A stretch of 64,000 nt of DNA from Muribaculaceae bacterium (lineage in GTDB: Bacteria; Bacteroidota; Bacteroidia; Bacteroidales; Muribaculaceae), in NCBI GenBank assembly GCA_029062005.1, contig JAIDQZ010000134.1:34793-98792 (forward strand), given 5' to 3'. A program made the translations under genes and the position numbers. Below are positions 12,221 through 22,961 of this stretch, piece after piece. Every line of letters starts with the position of its first letter. Position 1 is the first letter of the stretch. The notes beneath the pieces were generated by a model. It had not been told where the DNA came from and did not search any database. It saw only the letters and a list, made by a program, of their open reading frames with translations.

Positions 12221-13495
12221 ATGAAAAATTTATTGAAATACGCTTCCATCGGTCTTGTCGGATTCCTGATGACGGGATGTGCTGATACTTCCATCGATGA
12301 TTTCGAGGTGTCGAAGCCACAGAGCCTTATTGATTATGAGTATCTTGATGCCTATGGTTCTGTCAAGGAGTACGTAAACCGTGAGAATACTCCCGGTTTC
12401 ACACTCGGCATCGCCGCTTCTGCCAATGATTACATAGCCAAAGGATTCATATATCGTCTTATCAATCATAATTTCGATATTGTGACAGCAGGCAATGAAA
12501 TGAAGTATGCATCAATAGTGCAGAACGACGGTACGATGGATTTTTCCACAGTAGAGGCTTTCGTGGATGCTGCCGAGGCTGCCGGAATGCAGATCTACGG
12601 TCATACTCTTCTATGGCATGCACAGCAGAACACAACATGGCTGAACAATTGCATCAAGGATCTCGCTGACGATGAGGAAGGAACTGTAGCTGATAAGCAA
12701 TATGCTATACTTGATGCCGAGCTCGAACGCTGGATCGAAGGTATGATGAATGCCACACGTGGCTACGTCAAGGCATGGGATCTCATGAACGAGGGACTGC
12801 AGGACACATGGGGCAACATCCCTTTGAAAACAGACCCGGAAAAGAAAGAAAAGAATGATTTCTACTGGCAGGATTATCTTGGTGAGAATTATGTGCGCAA
12901 TGCAGTGAAATATGCCCGCAAATATTATGCCCAGCAGGAAGGTGCCAAGCCTGAAGATCTCAAACTCTTTATCAACGACTATAATCTTGAGGCAGCCTAC
13001 AACAACAATGACAAGGCGAAAAGCCTCGTCAACTGGATAAAGAAATGGGAATCAGATGGAGTCACCAAGATTGACGGTATCGGAAGCCAGATGCACATTT
13101 CATATTCTTGTGATACAATAGAGCAGAAGAGACGTGAGAACGCTGTGGTGAACATGCTTGAGATCCTTGCAAATTCCGGTAAGCTCATCCGTATCACTGA
13201 ACTCGACATGGGTATTGATGATGAGTATGGTGATGCTATCAAAACAGATGATGTGACTTTAGAGCAGCATAAGGCTATGGGTAAATATTATGAGTTCATC
13301 ATCTCAAAGTATTTCCAGATTATCCCTAAAGCTCAGCAATTCGGTATATGCCATTGGTGCATCACAGACTCCCCCTCCAAGTCAGGTTGGAGAGCTGACA
13401 CTCCGGTAGGACTCTGGACACTCGACTATCGCCGCAAGCCTGCTTATGGCAGCTTCTGTGATGCCATGAAAGCAGCAACTGACAACAATAAATAA
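12221..13495 (+). CDS. GH10 endo-1,4-beta-xylanase lipoprotein, without internal CBM insertion
   Basis: Lipobox FLMTGC; YGHTLLWHAQQN; acid/base context AWDLMNEG; nucleophile context IRITELDMG; INDYNLE. Confidence 0.92.
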   Translation: MKNLLKYASIGLVGFLMTGCADTSIDDFEVSKPQSLIDYEYLDAYGSVKEYVNRENTPGFTLGIAASANDYIAKGFIYRLINHNFDIVTAGNEMKYASIVQNDGTMDFSTVEAFVDAAEAAGMQIYGHTLLWHAQQNTTWLNNCIKDLADDEEGTVADKQYAILDAELERWIEGMMNATRGYVKAWDLMNEGLQDTWGNIPLKTDPEKKEKNDFYWQDYLGENYVRNAVKYARKYYAQQEGAKPEDLKLFINDYNLEAAYNNNDKAKSLVNWIKKWESDGVTKIDGIGSQMHISYSCDTIEQKRRENAVVNMLEILANSGKLIRITELDMGIDDEYGDAIKTDDVTLEQHKAMGKYYEFIISKYFQIIPKAQQFGICHWCITDSPSKSGWRADTPVGLWTLDYRRKPAYGSFCDAMKAATDNNK

Positions 13496-13574: not shown

Positions 13575-16438
<2,864 letters not shown>

Positions 16439-16497: not shown

Positions 16498-18534
16498 ATG
16501 CATAGACTAATTACTTCTTTTATTTTAACATTGATTCTCGGTGTCATTCCGGCTATGGCATGGCCCGGAATGCCGATGCCTAAGCTTCACGTCGAGGGAC
16601 GATGGCTGATGGATGAAGACGGCAATCACGTCAATCTCCACGGATTCGGACAGACTTATAGTCCGTGGTTCAATGAACAGGGCAGTAAATGGACCAACTA
16701 CGACGTGAGAAAATGTCTTGAATACAATAAGGACATCATTGACGGTGTTTTGGATAGAGCCGGATGGAAGATGACCTATATCCGTATGCATATGGATCCT
16801 TACTGGTCTAACAAGCCGGGTGTGCAGACTACAGGTGAAAATGATATCTCAGCTTTTGATTTTCAGAGATTTGTCAAATATCTCGAAACTGTGTTTATCC
16901 CTATGGCTGAATACGCTGTTGGAAAGGGTCTTTATGTTGTGATGCGTCCACCCGGAGTATGTCCTGAAAAGATCGAGGTTGGAGGTTCTTACCATAGTTA
17001 TTTGAAAACTGTTTGGGGTTATATCTCTACTCAAAAGCGTCTTACCGACAATCCTCACATAATGTTCGAACTTGCCAACGAACCTGTCCAGATCAAAGGC
17101 ACGGACGGTCAGTATGGAGCCGGCTCAGATGCCTGCAATCAGGCTCTTACCAGATTCTTTCAGGAAATAGTCGACATCATGCGCGAAAACGGATGCCAAA
17201 ACATACTTTGGGTGCCCGGAACGGCCTACCAGTCGCAGTATGCCGGCTTTGCAAAATATCCGGTCAAAGGTGAAAACATCGGATACGCAGTGCATGTCTA
17301 TCCCGGATGGTATGGCAGTGATGCCATTGAGCCGAGCCACGAGCTTGGCGGCAGCTATGGCGGAGGCTACGATTCTTTTGCCGCCGGATGGAAGAATCAG
17401 ATCGAGCCTTGTGCTGAAAAAGCCCCGATGCTGGTGACGGAAATGGACTGGCTCCCCTCAAAATATCAGGCTTCCTGGGGAAAGAGCATAACGGGTAAGA
17501 TGCTCGGACAGGGTTTCGGTGCCAACTTCAAGCTGCTTGCCGACCGCACCGGAAATATCGGCTGGATGCTTTTCACCGGACCGGAACTTCTTGCAAGATT
17601 TGACGGAAAGGCAGGACGTCCCGGAGTCTATACCATGTATAATGACCCTGACGGATGTATGTGGTCCACATATCATTGGTTTAATGAATACGCTGGTTGC
17701 GAATTGCCGGAGGTGCAGAGTGTGGATCTTTATTTCTCACCGCGTGGTGTGGAGACATCTGACGAGACTGTAATTCTGACCGGCAGTTCCAAAGGGGCTG
17801 CGCTCATAGCCGATCGTGGTATTGGCGTGGATTTCAACGTCAACGGTGATATCGATGTTAAGATTGCCGATCCTAAAATCCTGAATTGGGACAACAGTTC
17901 GTTCAATGCACTAAAACCGGGTAAGACCACTTGCGAACTCAGTTATACTCTCGACGGAAAACGTGAGTCCAGGACCATGAAGTTTATCTCTACTCCCTTC
18001 CCCTTGCTCAACGGTTATTTTAATCCCAATATCTGGGAGACCGGAACATTCGATGAGGCGAATAAGGAGTTCAGCACTGGAACGTATGGATTCGCCGGAT
18101 GGAAGTATGGCTCCGGTCTTGACCTTTCCGACTATAACTATCTTATCTGCGAGATGGAGACAAACGGAAACAACGGATTGTCGTTGAGACTTTTTGATAA
18201 TGACAATTACTGGGGTGATCCTACCGAACATAACTTCAACGGAAGCAGGAGAATAGTAGTGGATCTGAAGAACATGGTTTCCAACAAGGGTAGGAAGCTT
18301 GACCCATCTCATCTCTATATAATCGGTTTCTGGACAGTAGGAGGCGAGAAGCATCGTATCAAGAATATTTTTGTCTCCAACGACAGAAATGACTCCTCAG
18401 TCGGATCGGTAGATGCTGAGCGTGGCAGCGATGGTCCTGTGTATAATCTTCAGGGCATCCGGGTGGCTTCCTCGATTTCAGAAGTCACTGCTCCGGGCAT
18501 CTATATAGTAAACGGCAAAAAAATAAAAAAATAA
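16498..18534 (+). CDS. GH5 family endoglycanase with C-terminal CBM-like module and sorting-like tail
   Basis: LHVEGRWLMDEDGNHVNLHGFGQTY; IRMHMDPYW; MFELANEP (acid/base); VHVYPGWYG; LVTEMDW (nucleophile); tail VYNLQGIRV...GIYIVNGKKIKK. Confidence 0.85.
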   Translation: MHRLITSFILTLILGVIPAMAWPGMPMPKLHVEGRWLMDEDGNHVNLHGFGQTYSPWFNEQGSKWTNYDVRKCLEYNKDIIDGVLDRAGWKMTYIRMHMDPYWSNKPGVQTTGENDISAFDFQRFVKYLETVFIPMAEYAVGKGLYVVMRPPGVCPEKIEVGGSYHSYLKTVWGYISTQKRLTDNPHIMFELANEPVQIKGTDGQYGAGSDACNQALTRFFQEIVDIMRENGCQNILWVPGTAYQSQYAGFAKYPVKGENIGYAVHVYPGWYGSDAIEPSHELGGSYGGGYDSFAAGWKNQIEPCAEKAPMLVTEMDWLPSKYQASWGKSITGKMLGQGFGANFKLLADRTGNIGWMLFTGPELLARFDGKAGRPGVYTMYNDPDGCMWSTYHWFNEYAGCELPEVQSVDLYFSPRGVETSDETVILTGSSKGAALIADRGIGVDFNVNGDIDVKIADPKILNWDNSSFNALKPGKTTCELSYTLDGKRESRTMKFISTPFPLLNGYFNPNIWETGTFDEANKEFSTGTYGFAGWKYGSGLDLSDYNYLICEMETNGNNGLSLRLFDNDNYWGDPTEHNFNGSRRIVVDLKNMVSNKGRKLDPSHLYIIGFWTVGGEKHRIKNIFVSNDRNDSSVGSVDAERGSDGPVYNLQGIRVASSISEVTAPGIYIVNGKKIKK

Positions 18535-18558
18535 AGCCTTGTAATATCACCGATAACC

Positions 18559-18589
18559 TTTTAGGACGCACGATCCGTGCGTCCTAAAA
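18559..18589. repeat. Dispersed palindromic repeat copy 1 (GGACGCACG family)
   Basis: TTTTAGGACGCACG-ATC-CGTGCGTCCTAAAA, perfect 14-bp arms. Confidence 0.8.
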
Positions 18590-18616
18590 CAAAGAATACA
18601 ATTACAGAATAAAATT

Positions 18617-20065
18617 ATGAACCGAATAAAGCAATTATTACTATCCATTGCCGCAGGCGCATTATCATTAACTATGAGTGCCCAAGATCCCAACTTCCAT
18701 ATCTATCTCTGCTACGGACAGTCGAATATGGAAGGAAACGCTCTTGTCGAGAACATTGACAAGCAGAATATACCCGAGCGCTTCAAGATGATGCCGGCTG
18801 TGGATTACAGCAATCCAAAAAGGGTGAAAGGTGAGTGGTATGAGGCTATGCCACCGCTCTGCAGGGAACATACCGGGCTTACGCCTGCCGATTGGTTTGG
18901 TCGCACAATGGTGGAAAATCTTCCTGAAGAAATAAAAATAGGCGTTATCAATGTCGCTGTCGGTGGAGCTCCAATCGAGGACCTTGACAAAGACCTTGAT
19001 CCCAAGACTCTTGAAAACAAGGATGGCTGGTATAAAAACTACATGAAGGAATATGACAATTCTCCCTACGGTCGTCTGCTCGAATGTGCCAGGAAAGCGC
19101 AGCAAGATGGTGTCATAAAGGGTATACTCCTTCATCAGGGGGAATCCAACAACTGTCAGGAGTCCTGGTGTGGGAAAGTGAAGAAAGTATATGACGACCT
19201 TCTTTCGGATCTTGGACTTGAACCAAACTCCGTTCCTCTTCTTGTAGGCGAGACTGTCAGGTCGGAGATGGGAGGATATTGCGGCGGACATAATTCTGTG
19301 ATCAGCAAGCTACCCAAGACCATTCCTTCTGCAAAGGTGGTATCTTCAGCAAATCTGGAGCAGAAAGGCGACGGTCTGCATTTCACGGCACACGGCTACC
19401 GCGTGCTCGGTTGCCGATATGCCACGGCGATGCTGGAGACAATGGGAATCACCGATCCAAAAGTGCCTTATTCAGAGGCAATCCCTGAAGTTCCTCATCC
19501 AGATCCTACAGAAGGAGACTTTGTTTTTGATCTGGATACGTTTAATCCTACTATATGGGAAAAAGGAACGTTTGACACCGGGACCGGTGTCTTCGTAGCG
19601 GGCTTGTACGGTTTCGGAGGTTGGGAATACAATCCCCCGATCGACCTTTCGGGATACAAATATCTCGTGGCAGAACTCAATGAGCCGGAACAAAACGGTC
19701 TTGAATTCCGGGTTTTTGACACTGCGAGCTATTGGGAAGAACCCTACAGTGCCAAGTTCGGCGGCGGACAGATTGTGATAAGTGAGCTTAACGGAATGAT
19801 GAAGAATCTCAAGACCGGCATAGTTCCGCTTAATACTTCAGAGGTGTATAGAGTCGGATTCTGGTGCTACGGTAACTCTCCGATCCACATCAAGCACGTA
19901 TTCGCCACAAATAACAATCCTTATGATAGTGTCGCATCAGTCGATTCTGACTCGACTGAGTGTGGAGTCTACAATCTTCAGGGTATAAAGGTCGGTGATT
20001 CCATTTCAGAAGTTTCCGTGCCCGGTATTTATATTGCAAACGGCATTAAATTCAAGAAACCCTGA
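18617..20065 (+). CDS. CE6/SASA (sialate O-acetylesterase-like) SGNH acetyl xylan esterase with C-terminal CBM-like module and tail
   Basis: IYLCYGQSNMEG, VAVGGAPIE, GILLHQGESN, GDGLHFTAHGYRVLG; C-terminal module homologous to that of the preceding GH5. Confidence 0.85.
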   Translation: MNRIKQLLLSIAAGALSLTMSAQDPNFHIYLCYGQSNMEGNALVENIDKQNIPERFKMMPAVDYSNPKRVKGEWYEAMPPLCREHTGLTPADWFGRTMVENLPEEIKIGVINVAVGGAPIEDLDKDLDPKTLENKDGWYKNYMKEYDNSPYGRLLECARKAQQDGVIKGILLHQGESNNCQESWCGKVKKVYDDLLSDLGLEPNSVPLLVGETVRSEMGGYCGGHNSVISKLPKTIPSAKVVSSANLEQKGDGLHFTAHGYRVLGCRYATAMLETMGITDPKVPYSEAIPEVPHPDPTEGDFVFDLDTFNPTIWEKGTFDTGTGVFVAGLYGFGGWEYNPPIDLSGYKYLVAELNEPEQNGLEFRVFDTASYWEEPYSAKFGGGQIVISELNGMMKNLKTGIVPLNTSEVYRVGFWCYGNSPIHIKHVFATNNNPYDSVASVDSDSTECGVYNLQGIKVGDSISEVSVPGIYIANGIKFKKP

Positions 20066-20198: not shown

Positions 20199-22961
20199 AT
20201 GAAAAGGTTGAAATCTCTGATGCTCGGGGTGGTGCTGATGTCGATGGGTATTAATGCAAATGCCCAGGATCCCGACTTCCATATATATCTGTGTCTGGGA
20301 CAGTCCAACATGGAGGGCAGCGCTCCGATAGAACCCGTAGACCGCGAAAATATTCCGTCACGCTTCAAGGTGATGGCAACCAGCGACTACAGCAATACAA
20401 AACGCTCTACAGGCGAATGGTATGAGGCTGTGCCTCCATTGCTAAGGGAGAATACTGGTCTGACACTTATGGATTATTTCGGACGTACAATGGTAGACAA
20501 TCTCCCCGAAAATATCACAGTCGGAGTAGTTCCTGTGGCTGTCGGAGGATGCAAGATAGAGCATCTGAGCAAAGACTATGATCCGGCTACGGTCACTTCA
20601 GAGGCAGACTGGTTTCAGGGTTTCATGAAGGCATATGACAATAAACCCTACGACCGGCTTTTGGAATGTGCTAAAAAAGCGCAGAAAGATGGAGTGATCA
20701 AGGGAATACTGCTTCATCAGGGGGAATCCAACACCGGAGAAAAGGAGTGGCCCGAGAAGGTAAGGAAAGTCTACGACAACCTTCTTGCAGATCTCGGACT
20801 TGCACCTAATTCCGTTCCCCTTATTGCAGGCGAGGTGGTCTCTTCCGAAAAAGGCGGTGTATGTGGAAGCATGAACCCTATAATCAATACGCTGCCGGAT
20901 TATCTTCCGGTCGCTCATGTCGTGTCATCAGCCAACCTTCCCCAGCGTGGCGACGGACTTCATTTCACTTCTTATGGATATCGTGAGCTTGGAAGCCGCT
21001 ATGCAAAGGAGATGCTTTCATTAATGGGCATTGACGATCCTAAGCTCAACTATTCGGCTGAGGCTAATTTCATACCCTCTTCCTATGAAGTGAAGAGTCC
21101 TGACGGAAATACTGTGGTGACAGTGTCAGACAACGGAATGACTTTGACCTACAGTATCGCTTATGACGGCAATGTGTTCCTGCTTCCGTCTCCACTTGGG
21201 GTGAAAACCAATATCGGTGATTTTACATCCGGACTTGATATAACTTCGGTTTCAGGTGTGAAACAGGTGGCGGATTCATATTCACTTGCAAATATCAAGA
21301 AAAGCAAGGTGGACTATGTCGCCAACGAGGAGACTTTCACCGTGTCGCAGGGAGGCGTTCCGGTATTTGACCTTCAGATGCGTGTAAGTGACAATAATGT
21401 GGCGTTCCGCTATAGGTTGTTGCCCATGGGTGAAACTCTTTGCGCCGTAGTGGACAGTGAACTCACCGGATTTGTTTTTCCTGACGGCACCACTACTTTC
21501 CTATGTCCTCAGATGCAGCCAATGACAGGATTTGCAAGGACGGCTCCCAGCTATGAGACTAATTACGACCTTGACGATGTGATGGGTAAGAATGGATGGG
21601 GCAACGGCTACTCTTTCCCGTGCCTTTTCAGGAACGGCGACAACGGATGGACTTTGATTTCAGAGACCGGCATTGCGGGAGACTATTGCGCGTCTCACCT
21701 TGCCAATAAGTCGGGAGGGGAGTATTGCATAGCATATCCGAATAAGAACGAGAACAATGGTTTCGGTTCTACCGGTGCCCAGATTGCACTGCCGGGATTC
21801 ACTCCATGGCGTACTGTGACTGTCGGAGCCGATCTTGCCCCCATAGTTGAGACCACTGTGCCCTTTGACCTCGTGGAGCCACTTTATAATCCGTCGAAGG
21901 ATTACGATTACGGCAAGGGAAGCTGGAGCTGGATCATCAAGATGGATCCGAGCTGTAATTTCGAGGAACAGAAGAAATATATCGACTTCTCCGCCGCAAT
22001 GGGCTGGGATACCGTGCTTGTGGATGCCTTGTGGGATACACAGATAGGATATGAGGGCATAGAAAAACTCGCAGCATATGGAAAGGAAAAGGGTGTGGAC
22101 CTTTATCTGTGGTATAATTCCAATGGAGCTTGGAACGATGCCCCCCAGGGTCCGCGCGGCATCATGAACGATATTGTGAAGCGCCGCAAGGATATGGCAT
22201 GGATGCAGAAAAATGGTATTCGAGGCATAAAGGTTGACTTTTTCGGAGGTGACAAGCAGGAGACCATGAGACTCTACCATGATATTCTTGCCGATGCCAA
22301 CGATCACGGAATACTCGTGATTTTCCATGGTTGTACTCTTCCGAGAGGATGGGAAAGGATGTATCCAAACTTCGCAGCTGCAGAGGCGGTGCTTGCAAGC
22401 GAGAACCTTCACTTCTCGCAGGGGATGTGTGATGCGGAGGCAAAAAACGCCTGCATCCATCCTTTTGTGCGCAACACCGTAGGAAGTATGGATTTCGGAG
22501 GAAGCACACTGAATAAATACTATTCAACAGACAATGCCCGTGGTTCGAAGCGCATGACAAGCGATGTGTTCGCTCTTGCCACTGCGGTATTGTTCCAGAG
22601 TCCGGTGCAGCACTTCGCTATGGCACCCAATAATCTTGAGGATGCTCCGGCATGGGCGGTGGAGTTTATGAAGAATGTGCCGACTACATGGGATGAGGTA
22701 AGGTTTATCGACGGTTATCCCGGTAAGTATATCGTCATGGCTCGCCGTAGTGGCGATGACTGGTATGTGGCGGGTATAAATGCTCAGGATGATCCCGTCA
22801 CTGTAGATGTTGAACTTCCGTCACTGGCGGTAGGAAAACCGATTTCGATGTATAGCGATGACAAAAACCTTATAGGTTCTGTCCGTACTGTTAAGGCAGA
22901 CAAGAAAGGAAAAGTCAGAATGACGATTCCCAAAAACGGAGGTGCAGTCGTCAAATACTGA
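20199..22961 (+). CDS. Fusion protein: N-terminal CE6/SASA SGNH esterase plus C-terminal GH97 glycosidase
   Basis: N-terminus: IYLCLGQSNMEG, LLHQGESNTGEKEW, GDGLHFTSYGYRELG. From ~aa 290: SPDGNTVVTVSDNGMTLTYSIAYDG (GH97 N-domain), WDTVLVDALWDTQ, GIRGIKVDFFGGDKQETMRLYHDIL, FHGCTLPRGWERMYPNFAAAEAV. Confidence 0.88.
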   Translation: MKRLKSLMLGVVLMSMGINANAQDPDFHIYLCLGQSNMEGSAPIEPVDRENIPSRFKVMATSDYSNTKRSTGEWYEAVPPLLRENTGLTLMDYFGRTMVDNLPENITVGVVPVAVGGCKIEHLSKDYDPATVTSEADWFQGFMKAYDNKPYDRLLECAKKAQKDGVIKGILLHQGESNTGEKEWPEKVRKVYDNLLADLGLAPNSVPLIAGEVVSSEKGGVCGSMNPIINTLPDYLPVAHVVSSANLPQRGDGLHFTSYGYRELGSRYAKEMLSLMGIDDPKLNYSAEANFIPSSYEVKSPDGNTVVTVSDNGMTLTYSIAYDGNVFLLPSPLGVKTNIGDFTSGLDITSVSGVKQVADSYSLANIKKSKVDYVANEETFTVSQGGVPVFDLQMRVSDNNVAFRYRLLPMGETLCAVVDSELTGFVFPDGTTTFLCPQMQPMTGFARTAPSYETNYDLDDVMGKNGWGNGYSFPCLFRNGDNGWTLISETGIAGDYCASHLANKSGGEYCIAYPNKNENNGFGSTGAQIALPGFTPWRTVTVGADLAPIVETTVPFDLVEPLYNPSKDYDYGKGSWSWIIKMDPSCNFEEQKKYIDFSAAMGWDTVLVDALWDTQIGYEGIEKLAAYGKEKGVDLYLWYNSNGAWNDAPQGPRGIMNDIVKRRKDMAWMQKNGIRGIKVDFFGGDKQETMRLYHDILADANDHGILVIFHGCTLPRGWERMYPNFAAAEAVLASENLHFSQGMCDAEAKNACIHPFVRNTVGSMDFGGSTLNKYYSTDNARGSKRMTSDVFALATAVLFQSPVQHFAMAPNNLEDAPAWAVEFMKNVPTTWDEVRFIDGYPGKYIVMARRSGDDWYVAGINAQDDPVTVDVELPSLAVGKPISMYSDDKNLIGSVRTVKADKKGKVRMTIPKNGGAVVKY

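Follow-up and report, generated by a model that had tools for sequence, protein, structure and literature searches.

In Bacteroides xylanisolvens XB1A, the polysaccharide utilization locus PUL 43 includes BXY_29300, a glycoside hydrolase (GH) of the GH10 family with a CBM4 carbohydrate-binding module (CBM), and the hybrid two-component system (HTCS) BXY_29350; growth on xylans is abolished when the latter is disrupted (PMC4855328). BXY_29320 is a GH5_21 endo-xylanase that cuts corn glucuronoarabinoxylan and wheat arabinoxylan (PMC4491172), while BiXyn5A of B. intestinalis has been described as a GH5 plus an immunoglobulin-like (Ig2-like) module only (PMC5041131). CBM112, a module of Bacteroides GH26 mannanases, is specific for mannan and mostly intercalated in GH26 (PMC13357471). 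Here we analysed a stretch of 64,000 nucleotides (the window) from contig JAIDQZ010000134.1 of a Muribaculaceae bacterium, in which a GH5 enzyme and the adjacent carbohydrate esterase (CE), of family CE6, carry the same C-terminal module (Table 1). We propose that this module is an undescribed, CBM-like beta-sandwich which probably anchors xylan-degrading surface enzymes to (glucurono)arabinoxylan.

The sequence relation between the two modules is certain. They are 39-41% identical (40% over 124 residues, E 8e-36), so that the sequence-only reading of this DNA, which had seen homologous C-terminal stretches on a neighbouring GH5 and SGNH esterase, two unrelated catalytic folds, was right on both counts and in the positions it gave. 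The shared stretch of about 170 aa that it took for a single module is real, but consists of a module of 124-133 aa (about 125) and a separate tail of about 38 aa. This tail does occur on both enzymes, as had been noted; it is nevertheless an element apart from the module, because it is also found on module-free proteins, including the one encoded at 13575-15224. Again, the sharing is genuine but not confined to the two neighbours. When the source genome was searched with the GH5 module, three places only were recovered, namely the GH5 that supplied the query, the esterase (E 4e-29) and a protein on contig C146 (E 3e-40), which displays GH43 and GH43_C2 domains; an 85-row module profile returned the identical three places.

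In order to describe the fold, the translation of 17998-18396 was modelled with AlphaFold2 using an 85-row alignment drawn from the window and the fetched loci. The prediction is a beta-sandwich of ten strands with no long helix (predicted local distance difference test, pLDDT, 95.7; predicted template-modelling score, pTM, 0.89), in agreement with the beta-rich character read earlier from the sequence. The full-length CE6 model is used for strand order only (pLDDT 75, pTM 0.54), and its residues 302-431, which hold the second module copy, display the strand order of copy 1. Since a confident model is obtained for the module alone and stand-alone proteins exist, the module is predicted to be a discrete, independently folding domain. 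With residues numbered from the model start at 17998, I12, G16, G31, F32, G34, W35, Y71, G110, W112 and G115 are invariant in the 85 modules, R64 and W72 are kept in 98% of them, and W13, Y37, D67 and Y107 also belong to the invariant or near-invariant positions. Among these, we propose that W35, Y37, R64, Y71, W72 and W112 include candidate sugar-contact residues.

The earlier remark that the family is not a recognised one was borne out, as nothing significant was found in Pfam, NCBIfam or PDB sequence searches, either with single modules or with alignments of 21 and 85 rows. The CBM11, CBM30 and CBM86 chains of the PDB were unmatched by the 85-row profile at E <= 10, and Pfam results for the 85 modules contained no CBM11 or CBM30 match. 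Weak matches to CIA30 (PF08547) appeared in two of 21 members (best E 0.005) and in two of 85 (best E 0.13), and in neither window module, which leaves the module outside that family.

When 84,980 GTDB species genomes were scanned, 334 stretches matched, and from these the best 80 loci were kept. The module was present in 20 of the 393 sampled genomes of the order, source genome counted, and no copy was found outside the order in a phylum-wide sample of 396 genomes; it thus looks restricted to Bacteroidales. Module enzymes of Bacteroidales type are contained in two further records, one titled Staphylococcus sp. (L073) and one Candidatus Fermentithermobacillaceae (L091). Transfer outside the order was set aside for these, which are probably mislabelled or contaminated assemblies. 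With GH5, CE6, GH43 and GH10 from the source genome as queries, the partner domain was GH5, GH43 or CE6, alone or fused, in 119 of 124 module open reading frames (ORFs): GH5 in 61, GH5-GH43 in 26, CE6 in 23, GH43 in 6 and CE6-GH5 in 3. The remaining five are contig-edge or fragmentary frames without a catalytic match, and Pfam scans of 20 representatives agree with these calls. Contiguity with a carbohydrate-active enzyme, by which CBMs are defined, is therefore observed in 119 of the 124 frames. In two genomes of one genus the module is encoded alone, in a protein of about 233 aa made of signal peptide, module and tail; at one of these loci (L162) the neighbours include GH10, GH43-GH43_C2 and a major facilitator superfamily (MFS) transporter. 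Beside that stand-alone gene, L162:5878-8514 encodes an 878-aa protein with no Pfam match, whose N-terminal part looks GH30-like by eye.

The window GH5 shares 48% identity over 614 aa, module included, with the protein encoded at L129:8342-10360 of B. xylanisolvens XB1A, whose own module lies at L129:9980-10360. The gene order at that locus (GH10-CBM4, hypothetical, GH5-module, CE6-CE1, GH43-CBM6, HTCS, GH95) matches PUL 43, and the module-bearing GH5 of XB1A is on this ground identified as BXY_29320; the window GH5 is consequently a probable GH5_21 endo-xylanase. Both proteins have the GH5-Ig-module layout, but the B. xylanisolvens homologue is a lipoprotein which ends at the module and lacks the tail, here called T9SS-like (type IX secretion system). 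In the accessible portions of the literature on BXY_29320, the protein is given only as GH5_21, with no separate description of the C-terminal module. The window esterase at 18617-20065 is a predicted CE6 enzyme on the basis of its PF03629 (SASA) match. Judged by partner enzymes and gene neighbourhoods (kinship with BXY_29320, pairing with GH43 and CE6, and GH10 genes nearby), xylan is the most likely ligand, in preference to mannan, beta-glucan or cellulose.

The tail profile matched 33 places in the source genome, against three for the module, and about 30 of them are module-free. Eleven of the 33 overlap matches to TIGR04183 (Por_Secre_tail), while the window tails gave no PF18962 match at E <= 10 and no TIGR04183 match, so that T9SS-like is the fair term. 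PorV was found in the source genome as well as in each of the 19 further module-bearing genomes that were tested, and the tail of about 38 aa looks like a T9SS sorting signal. Lipoprotein homologues, for instance in Bacteroides and Fermentimonas, end at the module. With lipoproteins called by a simple lipobox pattern, 86 proteins combine a tail with an ordinary signal peptide and 18 combine a lipobox with no tail, the lipoboxes of the tailless proteins often reading Cys-Ser-Asp-Asp/Glu, close to the SDDDD surface-export signal of B. fragilis (PMC5080379). Four proteins were called with both tail and lipobox; upon inspection their Cys is not followed by acidic residues, and their N termini resemble conventional signal peptides. 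The eight with neither comprise three apparent lipoproteins whose boxes deviate from the pattern (L101, L103 and L117), two fragments, two CE6 proteins in which the tail has been lost and one unexplained case (L116). Tail loss is seen at L060:10458-13650, where the second of two tandem CE6-module genes lacks it, and in the CE6 of L063. The module enzymes thus appear to have two different ways to the cell surface, one tailed and one lipid-anchored, and to keep the module in both.

We then considered how the module came to be shared. A single clade of all 23 CE6 modules was rejected (approximately unbiased test, AU, p 7.7e-5; the clade was tested after the tree had been seen, on 130 columns with weak deep forks), and the module tree requires six or more switches of partner type. 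Because the CE6 modules are not one clade, attachment to an esterase seems to have happened on more than one occasion. Two congeneric genomes (G137 and G023) differ in a telling way. Over the roughly 160 residues that precede the module, identity is 74-75% from orthologue to orthologue but only about 30% from GH5 to CE6 within a genome. For the modules themselves the order is reversed, with 95% and 87% identity within a genome and 80.8-83% between genomes, which is the signature of gene conversion limited to the module and acting between neighbouring genes. The window's two copies are old and follow orthology by enzyme type. At L050:6868-11114, adjacent GH5 and CE6 genes carry divergent modules which both lack the Tyr-Trp and Arg signature, possibly reflecting a joint change of ligand. 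In a fuller proposal, decorated, acetylated (glucurono)arabinoxylan is the ligand of a new CBM family founded by the module, in which neighbouring copies are kept alike by gene conversion and can change their shared specificity in concert, stand-alone protein included; we advance this version only tentatively.

The reading best supported is that of a carbohydrate-binding module, because of the homology, the autonomy of the domain, its CBM-like fold, the restriction of partners to GH5, GH43 and CE6, the conserved aromatic and charged residues and the repeated acquisition. On these grounds the module is quite probably a CBM, and a xylan ligand is a little less likely than that. The suggestion of an uncharacterised CBM in the sequence-only reading therefore holds as to the CBM-like fold, the lack of a family match and the partners, of which only xylan-type ones were identified; it fails for the tail, which is not part of the module. 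Anchored in this way, the GH5_21 endo-xylanase, the CE6 acetyl-xylan esterase and the GH43 debranching enzyme would be held on (glucurono)arabinoxylan, where backbone cutting and deacetylation could proceed on one chain, with the T9SS-like tail probably placing the enzymes on the cell surface. Several observations weigh against a sugar-binding role. The module model had no Foldseek match in the PDB at E <= 1e-3 and its top match was NDUFAF1/CIA30, a mitochondrial complex I assembly factor (E 2.4e-3), so the fold alone proves no sugar binding; in favour of that role, however, the other nearest folds were MtGlu5, CBM11 (1v0a), CBM86 (6sgf, template-modelling score, TM, 0.55) and CBM8, with CBM30 lower down. 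Besides, the GH5_21 enzyme of Prevotella copri has 473 aa (PMC8631079) and seems too short for GH5, Ig and module, so GH5_21 does not always need the module, and there is a precedent for non-binding modules on xylan esterases in the CE1 enzymes of Dysgonomonas mossii, whose CBM48 domains failed to bind any glycan tested (PMC8040265).

The D. mossii result would equally suit a non-binding structural role, in which the beta-sandwich serves as spacer or stabiliser, setting the position of the catalytic domain or shielding the C terminus, and the conserved aromatics lie in the core. Ig-like spacers do stand directly upstream of the module in many homologues, but the module comes after such a spacer instead of replacing it and follows three unrelated catalytic folds. 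The stand-alone secreted form has no enzyme to space, and the invariant Trp and Tyr and near-invariant Arg across several Bacteroidales families are more than a spacer needs, so that we consider this role decidedly unlikely. A docking module, through which xylanase, esterase and GH43 would bind one another or SusC/SusD within one surface complex, would account for its presence on side-by-side enzymes, for copies homogenised by gene conversion and for a fold common to an assembly factor such as CIA30; yet the CBM11, CBM86 and CBM30 folds are nearly as close, the GH5-GH43 and CE6-GH5 fusions keep one module even though their enzymes are already joined, and no candidate partner domain was identified, which makes docking very unlikely. 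Recent CBM families may lack Pfam models, and the module could belong to a described CAZy family without a Pfam, NCBIfam or PDB representative. This is unlikely, given that the 85-row profile found nothing significant in the PDB, that BiXyn5A and BXY_29320 are described without it and that there is no similarity to the GH26-intercalated domain of CBM112 layout. Finally, module and tail stand together in the window GH5 and CE6, and in 97 of the 124 ORFs the module is followed by a tail, as would be expected if both formed one T9SS secretion cassette with the module serving export only. That single unit was rejected on the tailless lipoprotein homologues and the module-free tails, leaving the cassette a very slim chance.

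Returning to the window, the two enzymes lie in a xylan-type Bacteroidales locus with two SusC/SusD pairs, GH10, a CE1-type esterase, GH5, CE6, CE6-GH97, a transporter-like ORF, GH43, GH31 and GH115. In GH5 homologues the Ig-like linker is matched by PF02368 or PF21461; the corresponding region of the window GH5 falls below Pfam detection for both. Downstream, 20199-22961 encodes a CE6 (SASA) fused to a complete GH97 according to Pfam, with neither module nor tail, an unusual esterase/alpha-galactosidase-type fusion. Upstream, the 549-aa protein of 13575-15224 has no Pfam match and ends in the same T9SS-like tail; its first domain matches the CBMs of a GH10 enzyme (4mgs, E 3e-4; 4qpw, BiXyn10A CBM1, E 1.3e-3), and it adjoins an insert-free GH10 (12221-13495). 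The CBM4s that are inserted in Bacteroides GH10 enzymes may here be a separate secreted protein.

Table 1. Features of the module-bearing enzymes in the window, and stand-alone module proteins at two other loci (locus handle before the colon).
Feature	Position	Strand	Basis
Secreted GH5 enzyme, 678 aa: signal peptide - GH5 - linker/Ig-like region - module - tail	16498..18534	+	PF00150 (Cellulase/GH5), E 8e-15
GH5 catalytic core, Pfam-matched residues 86-287	16753..17358	+	PF00150
Region where homologues have an Ig-like linker (Big_2 / HL_N-beta)	17695..18009	+	position equivalence
Module copy 1 core, on GH5	18019..18381	+	homology; folded construct 17998-18396
GH5 C-terminal T9SS-like sorting tail, VYNLQG..GIYIVNGKK	18421..18531	+	tail profile
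Secreted CE6/SASA esterase, 482 aa: signal peptide - SGNH - module - tail	18617..20065	+	PF03629, E 4e-34
CE6 (SASA) catalytic domain, residues 27-273	18695..19435	+	PF03629
Module copy 2 core, on CE6	19541..19912	+	homology; strand order in full-length model
CE6 esterase C-terminal T9SS-like sorting tail	19949..20059	+	tail profile
Same tail on module-free protein 13575-15224	15117..15221	+	tail profile
Stand-alone secreted module protein, 233 aa, no catalytic domain	L162:9105-9806		
Stand-alone secreted module protein, no catalytic domain	L023:1411-2109		

If xylan binding holds, the module would give rise to a CBM family that counts its Bacteroidales members in the hundreds, would account for a surface xylanase and an acetyl-xylan esterase being aimed at one chain, and would provide an instance, open to testing, in which unrelated enzymes encoded side by side have had their binding domains homogenised. 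It sits on GH5_21 xylanases of which at least one, apparently BXY_29320, has already been purified and assayed, with the module not singled out in the available parts of those reports.

Among known systems, CBM86 of a Roseburia intestinalis xylanase (PDB 6sgf), a xylan-binding accessory beta-sandwich of about 130 aa, is comparable in size, fold and presumed role; it differs in its 11% identity to the module with no sequence-level match, and in coming from another phylum. CBM11 of Clostridium thermocellum Lic26A-Cel5E (1v0a, 6r31, 6r3m), whose entries are complexes with mixed-linkage glucan, and CBM30 (1wmx) are jelly-roll neighbours of the module, but are longer (170-175 aa), only 14-17% identical and without a Pfam match to it. 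The likeness to CIA30/NDUFAF1 is at the level of fold only and below significance. CBM112 shares with the module its occurrence on gut enzymes of Bacteroidota and can sit C-terminal on GH5, whereas its description names no CE6, GH43 or GH5_21 partner (PMC13357471). A 600-aa frame on the reverse strand of L154 encodes a Heminiphilus GH26 with a domain of about 130 aa inside the catalytic domain. This is the layout of CBM112, and the inserted domain bears no relation to the module. Membership of the module in CBM112 was unsupported, as hmmsearch against this intercalated domain, a representative picked by its architecture, gave a negative score. Some CBM112-family enzymes end in a C-terminal domain of 30-40 aa of unknown function (PMC13357471), which may be the same kind of tail as here, so that the separation of module and tail may explain this domain on other gut carbohydrate-active enzymes.

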